This document shows, piece by piece, positions 7,040 through 13,642 of a DNA stretch of 64,000 nucleotides. The stretch comes from an uncultured SAR86 cluster bacterium (GTDB lineage: Bacteria > Pseudomonadota > Gammaproteobacteria > Magnimaribacterales > D2472). The stretch spans positions 811,449-875,448 of the forward strand of contig CACIJE010000001.1 of the NCBI GenBank assembly GCA_902586925.1, given 5' to 3'. Below the pieces are notes generated by a model that saw only the letters and a program-made list of their open reading frames with translations, made no database searches and was not told the DNA's origin. Positions within the stretch are counted from its first letter, which is position 1; each line of letters opens with the position of its first letter. The position numbers and the translations under genes were made by a program.

Positions 7040-8302
7040 TTAATTATTTTTTTTAATTTTAATTTTTGATATTAAATTTTCATCAAGTTCTAGTATTTCA
7101 AAACGATAATTATCAACTTCAATACACAAATTTGCTTGAGGAATTTGATCCAAATATTCTGTTATAAGTCCATTAATAGTCTTAGAATTATCTTCAGGAA
7201 TAGACCAGTTTAAATAGTTATTTAGATCTCTTATTTTTGAATTGCCATCAGTTAAAATAGATCCATCTTTTAATTTAGTAAATTCTTTTTCTAATTCTTC
7301 TTTATCACCACCAAATTTACCAGTGATCTCTTTAAATATATCTTCAACAGATATCAGGCCTTCAATCTCTCCGTATTCATCTACAACAAGTGCAATGCTT
7401 TGATTGCTAGCTAGAAATTCTCTTAGCTGTTTCATAAGTAATGTTGACTGAGAAACAAAATAAGTTTTTTGAAGAATCTCTTTAATATTTCTGATTTCTC
7501 CTTGATTTAATTTATCTAAAAATGAATATGAGTCTTTAAGATGCAAAATTCCTATCATATTATCAATTGTGTCTTGAAAAACTGGAAGTCTTGTATATTC
7601 AGTAGACTTGATTATCTTTGTAGCTTCAACATAATCTTGATTAATGTCTATACCAATTATTTCTGATGTTGGAATCATAATATCTTCAACTATAAGCTCT
7701 TCCATTCCAAGAACTGATGAGAGCATTTTTCTGTATTGCTTTGGTATAAGGTCACCAGACTCTTCTAAGAGTGTCTTAAGCTCTTCTGTATTAAGGTTTT
7801 CATTCAATGTTGCATCTTTTGCATCTAACTTGAATATTTTGAGGATCTGCTTACTTAAAAAATTTGTAAGAAATATTAGAGGCTTAAAAACATAAACAAG
7901 AAACTTTAATATAAAAGATGATCTTGTTGCAAAGCTCTCTGGTTTTATAGCAGCCATTGTTTTTGGAGTAATTTCTGAGAAAATCAAAATAATAATTGTA
8001 AGAATTATTGACCCAAGTACAACATTTCCACCAAAATAATTTAGCATCATTATGGTTACTATTGCCGAAGCTAAAATGTTAGCAAAATTATTTCCTACTA
8101 GAATTGCAGAAAGTAACTGATCAGGTCTTTTTAGCAGATCTAATGCTCTTTTGGCACTTGTTTTAGATTTTTTTGATAAGTTTCTAAGCTTAATTTTATT
8201 TGCAGCCATCATTCCAGTTTCTGAACCAGAAAAAAATCCACTAAGTATTAATAAAAATATAAGTGTTGAAAAAAGAACTAGTAATGAGGGATCTTCTTGC
8301 AT
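7040..8302 (-). CDS. CNNM/CorC (HlyC) family transporter with DUF21, CBS pair and CorC_HlyC domains (CorB-like)
   Basis: An inner-membrane protein of the family implicated in Mg2+/Co2+ homeostasis. Reading from the ATG at 8302: N-terminal DUF21 transmembrane domain with FSGSETGMMAANKIKLRNL; cytoplasmic CBS pair starting near VEDIMIPTSEIIGID, with VVDEYGEIEGLISVEDI in the second CBS; then the small C-terminal CorC_HlyC domain. The longer frame opens at 8353, but the ATG at 8302 has a ggag Shine-Dalgarno and forms a TAATG junction with the upstream ypjD-like gene. That pairing is the E. coli ypjD-yfjD(corB) order. Transport substrate is inferred from the family only. Confidence 0.88.
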   Translation of the reverse strand: MQEDPSLLVLFSTLIFLLILSGFFSGSETGMMAANKIKLRNLSKKSKTSAKRALDLLKRPDQLLSAILVGNNFANILASAIVTIMMLNYFGGNVVLGSIILTIIILIFSEITPKTMAAIKPESFATRSSFILKFLVYVFKPLIFLTNFLSKQILKIFKLDAKDATLNENLNTEELKTLLEESGDLIPKQYRKMLSSVLGMEELIVEDIMIPTSEIIGIDINQDYVEATKIIKSTEYTRLPVFQDTIDNMIGILHLKDSYSFLDKLNQGEIRNIKEILQKTYFVSQSTLLMKQLREFLASNQSIALVVDEYGEIEGLISVEDIFKEITGKFGGDKEELEKEFTKLKDGSILTDGNSKIRDLNNYLNWSIPEDNSKTINGLITEYLDQIPQANLCIEVDNYRFEILELDENLISKIKIKKNN

Positions 8303-8868
8303 TATGCTCCAACTAAATATGAATTCATATAATATGCACCAAGTACAGCACACATAGAAACAAAAAGACTTCTGGTTGCATATTTTATTGGAAAATTGAA
8401 GTACTTAACGCCAACAACCGTTATCACAAAAATGAACCACGCAATAAATGTAAAAAGCGCTTTAAAAATTATATTTGCTGAAAAAACTGTTTGTAAGCTG
8501 AAACCTGACACTAAAGAGAAAGATAAAAATAATAATCCAATACCAAGTAATTTGAAAACAATTTTATAATTTTTCTCAACAGAAAAAGGCTCAATATTTA
8601 GGAGTTCGCCTTTTTTTAAATTCCTTATTTTTCTCTCAAGAATACTAATTTCAGAATAGGCGATGAAAATAATAAGTAAGCTTAGTCCTGTGACCATAAA
8701 ATGAATTGTTGGCATTAAAGATATCACTTCGTAGGCTGTTAAATAAATTAAAATATAGGAAATAACTGCTATATATCCTGCTATGTAGAGCGATTTTTCC
8801 TGTTTGTAGAAAAATCTAATAATAAAGTATATGACTATACTTATAGTCACTTGGCTTATAAAACTCAT
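8302..8868 (-). CDS. ypjD: YpjD-like cytochrome c assembly (CcsA-type) membrane protein, shortened
   Basis: A 188 aa hydrophobic protein with about six membrane segments. The later part (EKNYKIVFKLLGIGLLFLSF, SGFSLQTVF, KALFTFIAWFIFV, then KYATRSLFVSM) follows the pattern of the CcsA/YpjD family, whose members are usually around 260 aa. It lies directly upstream of the CorC-like gene and divergent from rpsP. In E. coli ypjD is divergent from ffh-rpsP; ffh is missing from this position here. A role in haem or cytochrome c handling is only family inference. The assignment rests on both sequence pattern and synteny. Confidence 0.62.
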   Translation of the reverse strand: MSFISQVTISIVIYFIIRFFYKQEKSLYIAGYIAVISYILIYLTAYEVISLMPTIHFMVTGLSLLIIFIAYSEISILERKIRNLKKGELLNIEPFSVEKNYKIVFKLLGIGLLFLSFSLVSGFSLQTVFSANIIFKALFTFIAWFIFVITVVGVKYFNFPIKYATRSLFVSMCAVLGAYYMNSYLVGA

Positions 8869-8970
8869 TAAAAATAAAGATTAATTAAAACTTTGCATAA
8901 TAATACTATCAATATTAGCAAGGTTAACCTAAAATACACATCTTTTTAAACAAAATTAAATATTTTTGGT

Positions 8971-9870
8971 ATGGTAATTATAAGATTAGCTAGAAGTGGA
9001 GCAAAAAAAAATCCATATTATTTCATCACTGTCGCAGATGAAAGACGTCCAAGAGATGGTGCATTTATTGAAAGATTAGGCTTTTTTAATCCATCAGCAA
9101 GTGGAAATGAAGAAAGGTTAAGAATAGATCTTGAAAAAATTGAAGAATGGATATCAAAAGGTGCTAAAGTAAGTGATAGAGTCAATTCACTTGTTAAAGA
9201 AGCAAAATTAACTCCAGAAGAACTTGCAGCGAAGATTGAGGCAAAGAAGGTAAAAGCAGAAGCTAAAAAGGCAGCATTAGCAGAAAAATTAGCCAAAGAA
9301 GCCGCGGAAGCCGCTTCACAAGAAGAAACTCCTGCTGAAGAGGCTCCTGCTGAAGAAGAAGCTCCTGCTGAAGAAGCACCAGCTGAAGAAGAAACTCCTG
9401 CTGAAGAAGAAACTCCTGCTGAAGAAGCACCAGCTGAAGAGGCTCCTGTTGAAGAAGAAGCTCCTGCTGAAGAAGCACCAGCTGAAGAAGAAACTCCTGC
9501 TGAAGAAGAAACTCCTGCTGAAGAAGCTCCTGCTGAAGAGGCTCCTGCCGAAGAAGAAGCTCCTGCTGAAGAAGCACCAGCTGAAGAAGAAACTCCTGCT
9601 GAAGAAGCTCCTGCTGAAGAAGCACCAGCTGAAGAGGCTCCTGCTGAAGAAGAAGCTCCTGCTGAAGAAGCACCAGCTGATGAAGAAACTCCTGCTGAAG
9701 AAGCTCCTGCTGAAGAAGCACCAGCTGAAGAAGCTCCTGCTGAAGAAGCTCCTGCTGAAGAGGCTCCTGCCGAAGAAGAAGCTCCTGCTGAAGAGGCTCC
9801 TGCCGAAGAAGAAGCCCCTGCCGAAGAAGAAGCATCTGATAAAGATTCTTCAGAAGATGAAAAAAAGTAA
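8971..9870 (+). CDS. rpsP: 30S ribosomal protein S16 with a long Ala/Pro/Glu repeat tail
   Basis: Residues 1 to about 82 are a normal S16: [34 protein letters not shown], then the Glu-Trp region. Typical S16 proteins end near here, but this reading frame runs to 299 aa. Residues about 83-117 form a Lys/Ala-rich, probably helical linker. Residues 120-287 are 31 tandem units of (A/T)PAEE or (A/T)PAEEE. The last 12 residues ([12 protein letters not shown]) are acidic. No stop or frameshift separates core and tail, and rimM starts inside the last codons, so the long product is the natural reading. The gene heads the rpsP-rimM-trmD-rplS operon. Tail function is unknown. Confidence 0.95.
9328..9831 (+). 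repeat. 31-unit coding minisatellite in rpsP with a ~99 bp higher-order period
   Basis: Units of 15 or 18 bp encode (A/T)PAEE(E). They are organised in six-unit blocks: 9343-9441 (99 bp), 9442-9540 (99 bp), 9541-9636 (96 bp) and 9637-9732 (96 bp), followed by a more uniform end. Synonymous choices recur at the same place in each block: the gca-cca-gct unit in fourth (old third) position, act-cct-gct next, and a gaa-gag end in the first three blocks followed by gct. This shows that whole blocks were duplicated, in addition to unit-level slippage. The tract has no stop in several other frames, which creates spurious long ORFs on both strands. Confidence 0.95.
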
Positions 9871-10375
9871 TTTAATTTGTATTGCAAATATAGGTAAACC
9901 TAGAGGTTTAAAAGGTGAATTTTATATAAATTCTTTTTGTTCACCGCCTGAAAATATTATTGAATATAAAAAACATATCTTATGTAATGACCACAATATA
10001 GAGTTTGATTATATTAAAAAGAATAATTCAAAATTTTTAGCTAAAATTAAAGACATTAATAATGTTGATGATATAAAGAGATTTACAAATATAAATTTGT
10101 ATATACCTTCAAGAAGTCTTCCAGAACTCCCATCGGATCAAATATATTGGCATGACCTAGTTGGTATGAAAGTAATTGGAATTAACAAAAATGAAATATT
10201 AGGTGAAGTCAAAGCGGTTAATAATTTTGGCGCAAACGACTGCTTAGTTATAAAACCTATCAATGAATCTGTTGATGATAAAGAAAGATTAATACCCTTC
10301 ATAAAAGAAACGTTTATTAAATTAATTGATAAAAAAGAAAAAATTTTAAAAGTTAATTGGCAAAGCGATTATTAA
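9857..10375 (+). CDS. rimM: Ribosome maturation factor RimM
   Basis: A 16S rRNA processing factor that assists maturation of the 30S head. It has 172 aa from the ATG at 9857: N-terminal beta-barrel starting [18 protein letters not shown], then the PRC-barrel part with [12 protein letters not shown] and the C-terminal [14 protein letters not shown]. The frame is open far upstream only because it crosses the rpsP repeat; the ATG overlapping rpsP by 14 nt is the start that fits the family. RimM acts on the same subunit as S16. Third-domain residues are divergent but the order of motifs is intact. Confidence 0.93.
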
Positions 10376-10381
10376 ATAATT

Positions 10382-11113
10382 ATGAATATTAATATTTTGA
10401 CAATTTTTCCAGATATATTTAACGTTTTAAATTCAGGAGTTGTTTCTAAAGCAATAAAACAAAAACTGATAACTATAAATCTTAGTGATATCAGAAAGAA
10501 TGCCATCAATAAACACAATCAAGTTGATTCAAAACCTTATGGTGGTGGAGAAGGCATGGTTATGATGGCAGAGCCTTTAATTAAGACTATTAAAAATATA
10601 AACACATCAAAAAGAGGACATATTGTCTATATGTCTCCCCAAGGGACAAAATTAAATCAAGACAAAGTAATTTCGCTATCAAAACTTGAAAATTTAACAA
10701 TAATTTGTGGAAGATATGAAGGAATTGACCAAAGAGTAATTGACAATTATGTTGATGAAGAAATATCAATTGGTGATTTTGTTCTAAGTGGGGGAGAGTA
10801 TGCAGCCATTTGCTTAATAGATTCAATTTCTCGGCACATACCAGGCACGTTAGGAAATAAAAATTCTTATTTAAAAGATACCTTCTCAAATGGACTCTTA
10901 AAAGAGGATGTCTATACAAAACCAGAAATATATGACTCCTTTAAGGTACCCGACATACTTCTATCAGGCAACCATGAAAAAATTGAAGCATGGAAATCAG
11001 AAATGTCATTAATTAAAACTTATTCAAAAAGACCTGATTTATTAAAAAATAGAAAACTAACAAAAAAACAAAAAAAACTCTTGGAAGAATGGTCATCTAA
11101 GGCTATCCTATAG
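10382..11113 (+). CDS. trmD: tRNA (guanine(37)-N1)-methyltransferase
   Basis: A SPOUT-class enzyme that methylates G37 next to the anticodon and prevents frameshifting. The 243 aa protein shows the deep-knot motifs: PYGGGEGMVMMAEPL, IICGRYEGIDQRV, ISIGDFVLSGGEYAA and LLSGNHEKIEAWK. The expected Asp in the flexible linker appears as KDTFSNGLL. It starts 6 nt after rimM and is followed by rplS after 19 nt, the standard operon order. Confidence 0.97.
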   Translation: MNINILTIFPDIFNVLNSGVVSKAIKQKLITINLSDIRKNAINKHNQVDSKPYGGGEGMVMMAEPLIKTIKNINTSKRGHIVYMSPQGTKLNQDKVISLSKLENLTIICGRYEGIDQRVIDNYVDEEISIGDFVLSGGEYAAICLIDSISRHIPGTLGNKNSYLKDTFSNGLLKEDVYTKPEIYDSFKVPDILLSGNHEKIEAWKSEMSLIKTYSKRPDLLKNRKLTKKQKKLLEEWSSKAIL

Positions 11114-11132
11114 CCGATTTTAGGCAATTATA

Positions 11133-11957
11133 ATGAGTGATAATAACGACAATAAGAAAAAAGGCTTTTTTTCCAGAATATTTGGAGGTTTCAGTGCGCC
11201 TAAAGAAACAAAACCTAAAGAAGCCAAAAAAGAACAATCAACTGAAGCTGAAACAATAAGTATTCCAAATAAGTCTGCTTTAAATAAAATGAAGAAAGCA
11301 GATATTGTTGCTGTCGCAAAAGAAAATGATCTTGAATTAGACATTAAACTTACAAAAGCTCAACTTCTAGATGCTTGGGATAGACACTTTAATTTATCGT
11401 CACCAAGTGCAGTTGAAGATGCTGCTACTGTAATGGCTGAATCTGCATCAAGCCAAGTTCAGGCTCCTGATGATAAAGCTCTAGCTGAAAAAGAAGCACC
11501 AGTCGAAGAAGAAGCACCAGTCGAAGAAGAAGTTCCTGCCGAAGAAGCACCAGCCGAAGAAGAAGTTCCAGCTGAAGAAGAACTAAAAGTTTCTTTAGTA
11601 GAAAAGACACCATCACAAATCATTGAAGATTTTGAATCAAGACAATTGAAATCAGACCTTCCTGAATTTAGACCAGGTGATACAGTAGTTGTTTCTGTTA
11701 AAGTTCGTGAGGGAGAAAGAACAAGGTTACAAGCATTTGAAGGCGTTGTAATGGGTGTAAAAAACTCAGGACTAAATTCATCTTTCATAGTGAGAAAGAT
11801 TTCAAGTGGTATAGGGGTGGAAAGAACATTTCAAACTCATAGTCCGATGATTGATTCTATAAAAGTAAAAAGAAAAGGGGATGTTCGTCAAGCCAAATTA
11901 TTCTATCTTAGAGAAAGATCAGGAAAGTCAGCAAGAATCAAAGAACGCTTAGAATAA
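11133..11957 (+). CDS. rplS: 50S ribosomal protein L19 with a 159-residue N-terminal extension
   Basis: Residues 160-274 (115 aa, the whole normal length of L19) are canonical: [48 protein letters not shown] and the Arg/Lys-rich C-terminus. Before it lie, in order: residues 9-20 [12 protein letters not shown], an aromatic amphipathic stretch like FtsY N-termini; a charged linker; residues about 45-86, a Rho_N/SAP-like helical segment ([18 protein letters not shown], then [10 protein letters not shown]); and residues 121-150 with five (A/V)P(A/V)EE(E) units. No good start codon lies near the core, and a core-only gene would leave about 500 bp unused after trmD. The extension therefore looks genuinely translated. 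Confidence 0.93.
11493..11582 (+). repeat. Short Ala/Val-Pro-Glu repeat in the rplS extension
   Basis: Five tandem units encode [23 protein letters not shown] and VPAEEE (the first two units are almost identical in DNA). This is the same repeat class as in rpsP 2 kb upstream, but with gtc/gcc/gtt codons that differ from the rpsP units. It is therefore related in kind and not a recent copy of that tract. Confidence 0.88.
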
Positions 11958-11958
11958 G

Positions 11959-12846
11959 ATGCATAAATTAATTAAGGAAGATTCTATTCTTAGGTCTTTT
12001 TTTAATTATCTGTTCGTTGAAAAAGGATTATCTAGCAATACAGTAAAGGCTTATGAAAATGACATATATTCATTTGTAAGTTGGGTAGAAAAAAGTAAGT
12101 TCGATTACCTTAAGCTTAAGGAAGAAGATATAAATAATTATATTTCATACCTTTTTAGTTCAAAATTAAAAAGCTCATCTGTAAATAGGAAAATATCATC
12201 AATTAAATCTCTATATCTTTTTCTTTTAAAAAAAAATTTGTTGAAAGACTTTCCACTTGATAATTTGGTATCACCAAAAAAAGAGAAATACTTACCAGAA
12301 TCAATGTCTGAAGCTGAAGTTGATTTATTATTAAAAAGTCCTCAAACCTCTAATAAAACTGAAAAAAGAGATAAAGCAATCATTGAGATGCTTTATGCCA
12401 CTGGGATGAGAATATCAGAGCTAATTAATCTTAAGGTTACTGACATTGATATGAAGAGAAATGTAGTGAAAGTGTTGGGTAAAGGATCTAAAGAGAGATT
12501 AATACCATTTGGCGACGCAGCATTTGACGCACTTTCAACATATTTAAGTAATAGAGAAAAATCATCTTGTAAGGAAATATTTTTATCAAACAGAGGAACA
12601 AAGCTTTCAAGAGTTGCTGTTTGGCAAAGAATAAAAATATATCTTACAAGAGAAAATTTAAAGAATACCATTTCTCCTCATACACTAAGACATGCATTTG
12701 CAACACACTTACTTAACAGGGGAGCAGATTTAAGATCTGTGCAACTTTTACTGGGCCATAGTGACTTATCAACCACTCAAATATATACTCACATTGCAAA
12801 ACAAAGATTAAGTGATGTTCTAAAAAAACATCATCCTAGGGGTTAA
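11959..12846 (+). CDS. xerD: Site-specific tyrosine recombinase XerD
   Basis: Resolves chromosome dimers at dif together with XerC and FtsK. The 295 aa protein has an N-terminal SAM-like core-binding domain and a C-terminal catalytic domain with all six residues: Arg151, Lys175, His241, Arg244, His267 and the nucleophile Tyr276 (LGHSDLSTTQIYTH). The ending LKKHHPRG is XerD-type, and dsbC follows as in E. coli, which favours XerD over XerC. It begins 1 nt after rplS ends. Confidence 0.93.
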   Translation: MHKLIKEDSILRSFFNYLFVEKGLSSNTVKAYENDIYSFVSWVEKSKFDYLKLKEEDINNYISYLFSSKLKSSSVNRKISSIKSLYLFLLKKNLLKDFPLDNLVSPKKEKYLPESMSEAEVDLLLKSPQTSNKTEKRDKAIIEMLYATGMRISELINLKVTDIDMKRNVVKVLGKGSKERLIPFGDAAFDALSTYLSNREKSSCKEIFLSNRGTKLSRVAVWQRIKIYLTRENLKNTISPHTLRHAFATHLLNRGADLRSVQLLLGHSDLSTTQIYTHIAKQRLSDVLKKHHPRG

Positions 12847-12847
12847 A

Positions 12848-13642
12848 ATGCAAAATAAATATTTTATATTTTTCTTATTAATATTCTCAACAAGTTCAAT
12901 TTCGGATGATTCTTTAAGTCTTGTAGATAAAAAGATTGTTGAATCAATTTCCAAGAAAATTTCATTAGTACTTCCTGAAGGATCAAAAATTGAAACTGTC
13001 GAAAAGTCTGAATTCCCAGGAATATATAAAGTATATTTTGGGGATATTCAACCAATTTATGTTTCTGAAGATGGAACTTATTTTTTATATGGAAGTATGT
13101 TTAAAATTAAAAATGACGATTATTTGTCAGATGAAAATATCGGTGCAAGCAATGGTCGAACTAATTCTATTATTCAAAACTTAACAGATTTAGATATCTC
13201 TAGTAGAAGATTATCTTTAATGGAGCAAATTGATAAAAATGAATTAATTAGCTTCGAGGCTGAAAATCAATTATACGACTTAATAGTATTTACAGATGTT
13301 GATTGTGGATATTGTAGAAAACTTCATAACGAAATAAAAGAATACAATGAATTAGGCATAACAATAAGATATGCTGCATTTCCAAGATCAGGATTGGGTA
13401 CAGAAACTTTTTCAAAAATGGTTGGTGCTTGGTGTTCAAATGATAAATCCAAAGTAATAACTGAATTAAAAGATGGTAAAAAAATAAATTTAGATTTTTG
13501 TGATTCACAACCTGTTGCAAAACATTACGCAATTGGAAAAAAGCTAGGCATTACTGGAACACCTGCGATAATAGATAATAAGGGCGAGCTTTTACCAGGA
13601 TATCTCTCGCCAGCTGATTTGCTTCAAAAACTTAAAGGCTAG
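12848..13642 (+). CDS. dsbC: Periplasmic thiol:disulfide isomerase DsbC
   Basis: Predicted to shuffle wrong disulfides in periplasmic proteins. Residues 1-19 are a signal peptide (KYFIFFLLIFSTSSISD). An N-terminal dimerisation domain is followed by a thioredoxin-fold domain with the redox site Cys153-Gly-Tyr-Cys156. A second Cys pair (near AWCSND and LDFCDSQ) and the cis-Pro loop TGTPAI are present as in E. coli DsbC. The length (264 aa) is slightly above E. coli's. It follows xerD by 1 nt, the conserved order. Confidence 0.92.
   Translation: MQNKYFIFFLLIFSTSSISDDSLSLVDKKIVESISKKISLVLPEGSKIETVEKSEFPGIYKVYFGDIQPIYVSEDGTYFLYGSMFKIKNDDYLSDENIGASNGRTNSIIQNLTDLDISSRRLSLMEQIDKNELISFEAENQLYDLIVFTDVDCGYCRKLHNEIKEYNELGITIRYAAFPRSGLGTETFSKMVGAWCSNDKSKVITELKDGKKINLDFCDSQPVAKHYAIGKKLGITGTPAIIDNKGELLPGYLSPADLLQKLKG

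Follow-up and report, generated by a model that had tools for sequence, protein, structure and literature searches.

The extended rplS gene and its surroundings

The window, a stretch of 64,000 nucleotides of DNA from an uncultured SAR86 cluster bacterium, carries the rplS gene for ribosomal protein L19 in the same order as in E. coli, after rpsP, rimM and trmD (Table 1). The initial annotation, made from the sequence alone, had described the product of rplS as a normal L19 preceded by an N-terminal extension of several parts; we confirmed this observation, and the interpretation attached to it is partly supported. The protein starts with MSDNNDN, which precedes a short tag, and continues through a spacer, a block at residues 45-86 and a linker into the L19 core. 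That its last 115 residues form an ordinary, full L19 was borne out by the Pfam profile Ribosomal_L19 (PF01245), which matched residues 162-272 with E 4e-47 over profile positions 1-111 of 111. No SRP54-type NG GTPase domain was matched by Pfam within the 274-aa protein. The acidic A/V-P-E linker expected after the block is also there, and among 31 genomes, including that of the window, it varies in length from 37 to 170 residues and consists of 30-44% D/E. In the full-length AlphaFold2 model of L19 (mean pLDDT 62, with 52-83 for the core in blocks of ten), the linker has pLDDT values below 50 at residues 90-111 and 113-153.

Table 1. Features at the rplS locus (positions are those of the window).
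Feature	Position	Strand	Basis
Gap between the gene in the ypjD position and rpsP, site of ffh in E. coli	8869-8970 (102 bases)	.	Window ORFs compared with E. coli K-12
rpsP (S16) with long Pro-Ala-Glu C-terminal tail	8971-9870	+	Pfam S16 at residues 8-68 of 299
rimM	from 9857		Between rpsP and trmD as in E. coli
trmD, directly upstream of rplS	10382-11113	+	ORF of 243 aa; named by place compared with E. coli
rplS, L19 with N-terminal extension	11133-11957 (stop included)	+	ORF of 274 aa, ATG start; Pfam L19
Basic/aromatic tag like the FtsY N-terminus, residues 8-19	11154-11189	+	Conservation, dN/dS, hhalign
Variable spacer, residues 20-44	11190-11264	+	dN/dS 0.842; pLDDT <50 for residues 24-40
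SAP/Rho_N-type helix-extended-helix domain (predicted), residues 45-86	11265-11390	+	AlphaFold2, VIA-align, dN/dS
Acidic Ala/Val-Pro-Glu linker, residues 91-159	11403-11609	+	Composition; low pLDDT
Ordinary L19 core, residues 160-274	11610-11954	+	Pfam PF01245, E 4e-47

In E. coli K-12, the order rplS-trmD-rimM-rpsP-ffh is followed by ypjD-yfjD. No ffh is present among the ORFs of the window at the syntenic site beside rpsP, where only the 102-base gap lies. Facing rpsP are a CNNM/CorC gene, recognized by Pfam, and a gene of 188 aa in the ypjD position, which was assigned to ypjD by its place and has zero Pfam matches.

The S16 protein encoded by rpsP has a Pro-Ala-Glu repeat from residue 118 on, which extends over 182 residues (9322-9867), and the S2 proteins of the window's family have acidic tails. 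As these tails occur in the same lineage, the L19 linker may have a general cause. In several relatives, repeats of the Pro-Ala-Glu type in L19 fall where contigs end. The stretch at 11090-11132, which covers the end of trmD and the bases before rplS (TATCCTATAGC ... TTTTAGGC), is well conserved in the family. A CCTA may pair with a TAGG near the rplS start codon, perhaps in translational coupling. The search of positions 8000-13000 with Rfam revealed no L19 leader, and its three matches were far under the cut-offs.

Selection, tag and predicted fold of the N-terminal module

Residues 1-20 and the block had dN/dS ratios of 0.129 and 0.133, respectively, against 0.842 in the spacer, 0.228 in the linker and 0.080 in the C-terminal 115 residues. 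These ratios were calculated from 124 pairs with a core pS between 0.03 and 0.60, drawn from 30 genomes out of the 31; they are rough, as the pairs overlap and are not independent, and as synonymous sites are fairly saturated at pS near 0.6. The rows had to contain the pattern GF[FL], KKA[DE]IV and TK in the tag and block, and dN was lowered somewhat by this requirement. An earlier run with 20 pairs agrees with these values (0.115 for the tag part, 0.923 for the spacer, 0.114 for the block and 0.063 for the core). Conservation counts from motif-picked alignments were set aside, and residues were recounted on rows that a tblastn search with the window module had retrieved, not rows picked by motif (37 of 38 rows used; one 5'-cut row was excluded). 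In the tag, K10, G11 and F13 are conserved in 97% of the 37 rows, F12 in 100% and S14 in 95%. In the block, K54, K55, A56, I58, A62, L69, T74 and K75 are invariant (100%), and W82 and F86 are conserved in 92% and 97%, respectively. The exceptions in sequence are GFL in G077, SFF in G008 and KKAEIA in G096. The spacer differs greatly in dN/dS from the parts on either side of it: the tag and the block are both under strong purifying selection as protein, and the spacer between them drifts in a near-neutral manner. Thus, the FtsY-like tag and the block are present before the L19 core as claimed, and are conserved and selected as protein. A translation start near residue 150, which the initial annotation had considered as the alternative, was rejected because the residues upstream of it are selected and conserved; it is contradicted both by dN/dS and by the residues fixed in the 37 rows.

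The likeness of the tag to the N-terminus of FtsY is supported by profile alignment. The N-terminus of E. coli FtsY reads MAKEKKRGFFSWLGFG, and hhalign of the module profile with the whole of this protein (497 aa) paired the tag with FtsY residues 3-20, KEKKRGFFSWLGFGQKEQ, at 47% identity, with P 5.7e-4 and a probability of only 30%. By this alignment, the N-terminal tag of L19 is basic-aromatic and belongs to the KKRGFFSW type. Among 30 FtsY loci from the class, 25 had a loosely similar stretch, the pattern being broad and the 30 loci being the best of the matches. In a PDB search, the tag aligned with BamC too (E 0.013), and therefore this type of sequence is not unique to FtsY. The window genome has 2 sites that fit a degenerate DNA pattern for KKGFF and 4 that fit a reversed control pattern, indicating that chance would yield the bare motif at a similar frequency. 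As the second KKGFF site lies antisense inside a 145-aa frame, the site in L19 is the only likely KKGFF in this genome. Common descent of the FtsY and L19 tags cannot be shown, about 12 residues being too few for that. Two possible sources of these sequences were rejected: FtsY of the window genome itself as the source of the tag, since TIGR00064 gave one weak match below its cut-off in this genome and SRP54 gave none, and a phage as the source of the module, since 140 pattern matches in viral_contigs included zero relatives.

The initial annotation had assigned a Rho_N/SAP/HeH layout to residues 45-86. AlphaFold2, supplied with 29 aligned relatives, predicted helices at residues 47-51, 55-64 and 75-86, and thus a SAP/Rho_N-type helix-extended-helix arrangement at residues 47-86. 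The order of a short helix, a helix, an extended loop and a helix within about 40 residues is that of the SAP/Rho_N/HeH fold, many members of which bind DNA or RNA. The mean pLDDT was 92, 89 and 92 for residues 51-60, 61-70 and 71-80, respectively, and 73-76 at the domain edges; residues 1-40 were modelled by AlphaFold2 without confident structure. Foldseek searches of the PDB with the domain model returned nothing at E 1e-3 or better. The top row of VIA-align was an unrelated-looking gliding-machinery ATPase (Z 5.7), next to residues 111-156 of T4 endonuclease VII (Z 5.5) and residues 1-46 of Rho (Z 5.4, rmsd 2.0 over 46 residues). Lower rows included the SAP domain of Tho1 (4.3), 3'hExo (4.2) and FAN1 (4.0), the latter two presumably matched through their SAP domains, and also vFLIP, lysyl-tRNA synthetases and CDNF at Z 3.5-4.0, middling Z values being common. 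In a profile search of PDB sequences, 1jjr, titled thyroid autoantigen, which we take to be the Ku70 SAP domain, aligned in register with E 0.22.

The profile searches proposed in the initial annotation gave a different result: Pfam had zero matches to residues 1-159 of the window L19, including Rho_N (PF07498), SAP (PF02037) and HeH, and none at E <0.01 to the modules of 23 relatives, where the best was a weak, unrelated name at E 0.013. NCBIfam, applied to 23 module members, returned weak unrelated names only (best E 0.0023), and hhalign with residues 1-48 of E. coli Rho was not significant (16 columns, probability 8.5%). The layout is supported by the predicted fold, with a weak and mixed fold comparison, and is not supported by the Pfam families or the alignment with Rho. 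Within SAR86, another family has two genomes in which the module profile matched the C-terminal tail of S2 (E 7e-5 and 1e-4), and hhalign of the L19 module with the S2 tail gave P 3.7e-7 and a probability of 93% over 36 columns. In Pfam, these S2 tails scored as SAP with E 1.3e-4 (21.9 bits, just short of the cut-off of 23.9) and 5e-4 (20.1 bits). The clearest link that the sequence of the L19 domain suggests is thus within SAR86, to the S2 tail. Because of the fold comparison and of the match to the SAP-like S2 tail, the L19 domain is best called SAP/Rho_N-type by its predicted fold, though it lies outside any Pfam family.

A SAP-type C-terminal domain after a charged tail was seen in S2 at L167:1898-2926 (-), L168:1154-2191 (+) and L242 (by eye). 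Another SAR86 family has such ends in part of its members, and lysine-rich or acidic tails in others.

Distribution of the module and of SRP components

Of the 203 genomes of the order, 42 had strong matches to the module (E <1e-20), and each of these belongs to the window's family. The conservation of residues 45-86 among relatives, on which the initial annotation had made its proposal depend, was thus borne out by 42 of the 107 family genomes and by the 37-row alignment. A scan of species genomes, whose reach was limited to relatives close to two peptide patterns, yielded 36 loci, 34 titled SAR86 and 2 titled only Pseudomonadota or Gammaproteobacteria. The tree of TrmD and the L19 core, made by a quick method, comprised 73 rows (8 of 81 were dropped for lack of TrmD). 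Among the 64 family rows with readable TrmD, the module is present in 35 and absent in 29, and its changes on the tree number at least 8, gains and losses together, 6 of them forced by starred branches, as compared with 24.6 for shuffled labels. The possibility that the module has a single origin and marks a clean clade was rejected, since the tree needs 8 changes. Family members free of the module still have an acidic L19 extension. In the other three families sampled within SAR86, L19 was plain in all 10 genomes in which it was found (11 asked). Weak matches of the module profile also fell on a frame resembling a topoisomerase in G155 (E 0.005) and on an archaeal-looking FtsY frame in G156 (E 0.007). 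At L059 (G044), the L19 frame continues into the gene that follows, and the last part of its linker is similar to the L19 of another genus; this frame may be an assembly chimera or a product of recombination in repeats.

The signal recognition particle (SRP), which normally directs ribosomes to the membrane, is described as generally essential in PMC8299109, with yeast, Streptococcus mutans and E. coli as exceptions. The SRP54 GTPase family, which includes Ffh and FtsY, was over cut-off in 0 of the 107 genomes of the window's family, with one weak sub-threshold match, and in 14 of 14 controls. In the whole order, matches with E 0.001 or lower occurred in 14 of 203 genomes, of which 6 reached the cut-off. 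Five of these six matches covered 58-64 profile positions at 21-25 bits, and the sixth is the full FtsY-type frame in G156, which we read as lying on a contaminant contig because the neighbouring genes (prefoldin-like, helicase) look archaeal by eye. The 4.5S RNA, searched for across many genomes with stricter filters, was found in 0 of the 107 family genomes; it was matched in 11 of 14 controls, in 9 of them over the cut-off. Thus, on the sequence searches, the SAR86 order appears to lack SRP, namely Ffh and FtsY and, in the window's family, 4.5S RNA. SRP is apparently missing in all four SAR86 families sampled, and strong module matches occur in one only. This apparent loss provides a context for an FtsY-like tag on L19.

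In a control of the class, 168 of 185 gammaproteobacterial genomes, 3 of which are SAR86, were over the FtsY cut-off. The FtsY profile alone gave no FtsY-type match in nine gammaproteobacteria outside SAR86 (G205, G207, G238, G245, G313, G356, G359, G363 and G374), eight of which are 94-98% complete. L19 was found in 8 of these 9 genomes, and the module in none of them. SRP may have been lost several times in gammaproteobacteria. A long tail of YidC as a substitute for SRP was considered and rejected, as none of the 11 YidC loci with a readable frame, three of them from the window's family, had a long basic tail; a twelfth locus, L209, gave no frame, and the YidC located in the window genome itself is separate from these loci.

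Possible roles of the module

What the computations show is selection on both the tag and the domain, a tether, a predicted fold, and a lineage that has apparently lost SRP. As to function, we infer, with a probability of about 0.4, that the L19 module keeps ribosomes at the membrane and/or holds nucleic acid in a lineage without SRP. From the L19 core, a long, acidic and probably disordered linker would lead to the SAP/Rho_N-type domain and to the basic-aromatic tag at the N-terminus. As FtsY does with its first 14 residues, the tag would make weak, reversible contacts with anionic inner-membrane lipids, and the SAP-type domain would grip either nucleic acid (RNA or DNA) or a partner protein. 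Jointly, the two parts could hold ribosomes near the membrane and so favour the insertion of membrane proteins without delivery by SRP and FtsY. According to PMC5533587, FtsY makes a dynamic contact with lipid through its first 14 residues, altering the charge of these residues weakens the contact, and the A-domain that comes next is highly acidic. FtsY resembles the extended L19 in having a KK(K/R)GFFS basic-aromatic tag at the N-terminus, a long acidic region and a functional core; it differs in that L19 has no NG GTPase, carries a SAP-type domain between the tag and the acidic stretch, and places the whole on L19. Among the points for the membrane tether are the agreement of this order of tag, acidic stretch and functional core with FtsY, and the alignment of the tag with residues 3-20 out of the 497 residues of FtsY. 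The module would be an aid and not a required replacement for SRP: SRP-less relatives and eight FtsY-less other gammaproteobacteria do without it, indicating that life without SRP needs no module.

The module could instead be chiefly a tether for nucleic acid, which we consider rather doubtful. The SAP-type domain would then hold mRNA, rRNA or nucleoid DNA near the ribosome, in translation-transcription coupling or polysome cohesion, and the tag, without any membrane role, would either contribute to this contact or serve as a peptide for protein docking. The presence of the nucleic-acid binders T4 endonuclease VII, the Rho N-terminus, Tho1 SAP, 3'hExo and FAN1 among the top structural rows is in line with such a role, as are the SAP-type tail that some members of another SAR86 family have on S2 and the invariant lysines 54, 55 and 75. 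However, the structural list is not pure, with the gliding-machinery ATPase in first place and vFLIP, lysyl-tRNA synthetases and CDNF further down, residues 45-90 are almost neutral in charge (8 K/R and 7 D/E), and the tag, which resembles a lipid-binding stretch, is conserved as strongly as the domain. Docking of the ribosome to a specific protein, e.g., SecA, SecYEG, YidC or RNA polymerase, seems unlikely. Small helical domains and short aromatic peptides are frequent protein docking sites, and strong conservation of the lysines, W82 and F86 would fit such a function, but the searches point to no partner.

It is highly improbable that the extension is mainly a by-product of the growth of acidic tails on ribosomal proteins, with the parts at its end as neutral passengers. 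The 182-residue tail of S16, the acidic tails of S2 in the window's family and the acidic L19 extension retained by module-free relatives speak for it, whereas a dN/dS of 0.13 in both end parts versus 0.84 in the spacer, and the fixed residues in 37 rows, speak against it. For the tag and the domain, this explanation is contradicted; for the linker, it may hold.

Among known systems, the SAP/Rho_N/HeH domains resemble the L19 domain in predicted fold, as illustrated by the superposition on Rho, and in the match of the S2 tail that lies near SAP; unlike them, the L19 domain is without a Pfam match and sits on a ribosomal protein. Long C-terminal tails of YidC in some marine bacteria bind ribosomes and partly replace the SRP receptor (Seitl 2014, as cited in passages of PMC8595059). 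By analogy, the supposed job of the L19 module would be the same, i.e., to hold ribosomes at the membrane, with the difference that there a membrane protein reaches the ribosome, and here a ribosomal protein would reach the membrane. Chloroplast bL19 is likewise extended, by 46 residues for both ends together, and its N-terminal extension (in bL19c) lies near the bulge between H100 and H101; the relevant passages of PMC5071890 describe no tether or domain in it. A SecA of SAR86 was used in PMC8321541. In titles and abstracts, with few subscription journals covered, we found no report of the L19 module or of SRP loss in SAR86, in agreement with the suggestion of the initial annotation that the module is undescribed. 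It extends a ribosomal protein by a domain whose type is known, and the missing SRP makes the case much more interesting.

It is possible, though we hold it to be less likely than not, that this free-living marine order dispensed with SRP and that one family built an FtsY-like tag and a SAP-type domain into L19, making its ribosomes membrane-seeking. If this is true, there is a bacterial ribosome that bears a tethered lipid- or nucleic-acid-binding module. An order without detectable Ffh, FtsY and 4.5S RNA would mean that nature has already solved the insertion of membrane proteins without SRP, and the L19 module is a concrete candidate for a part of the answer.
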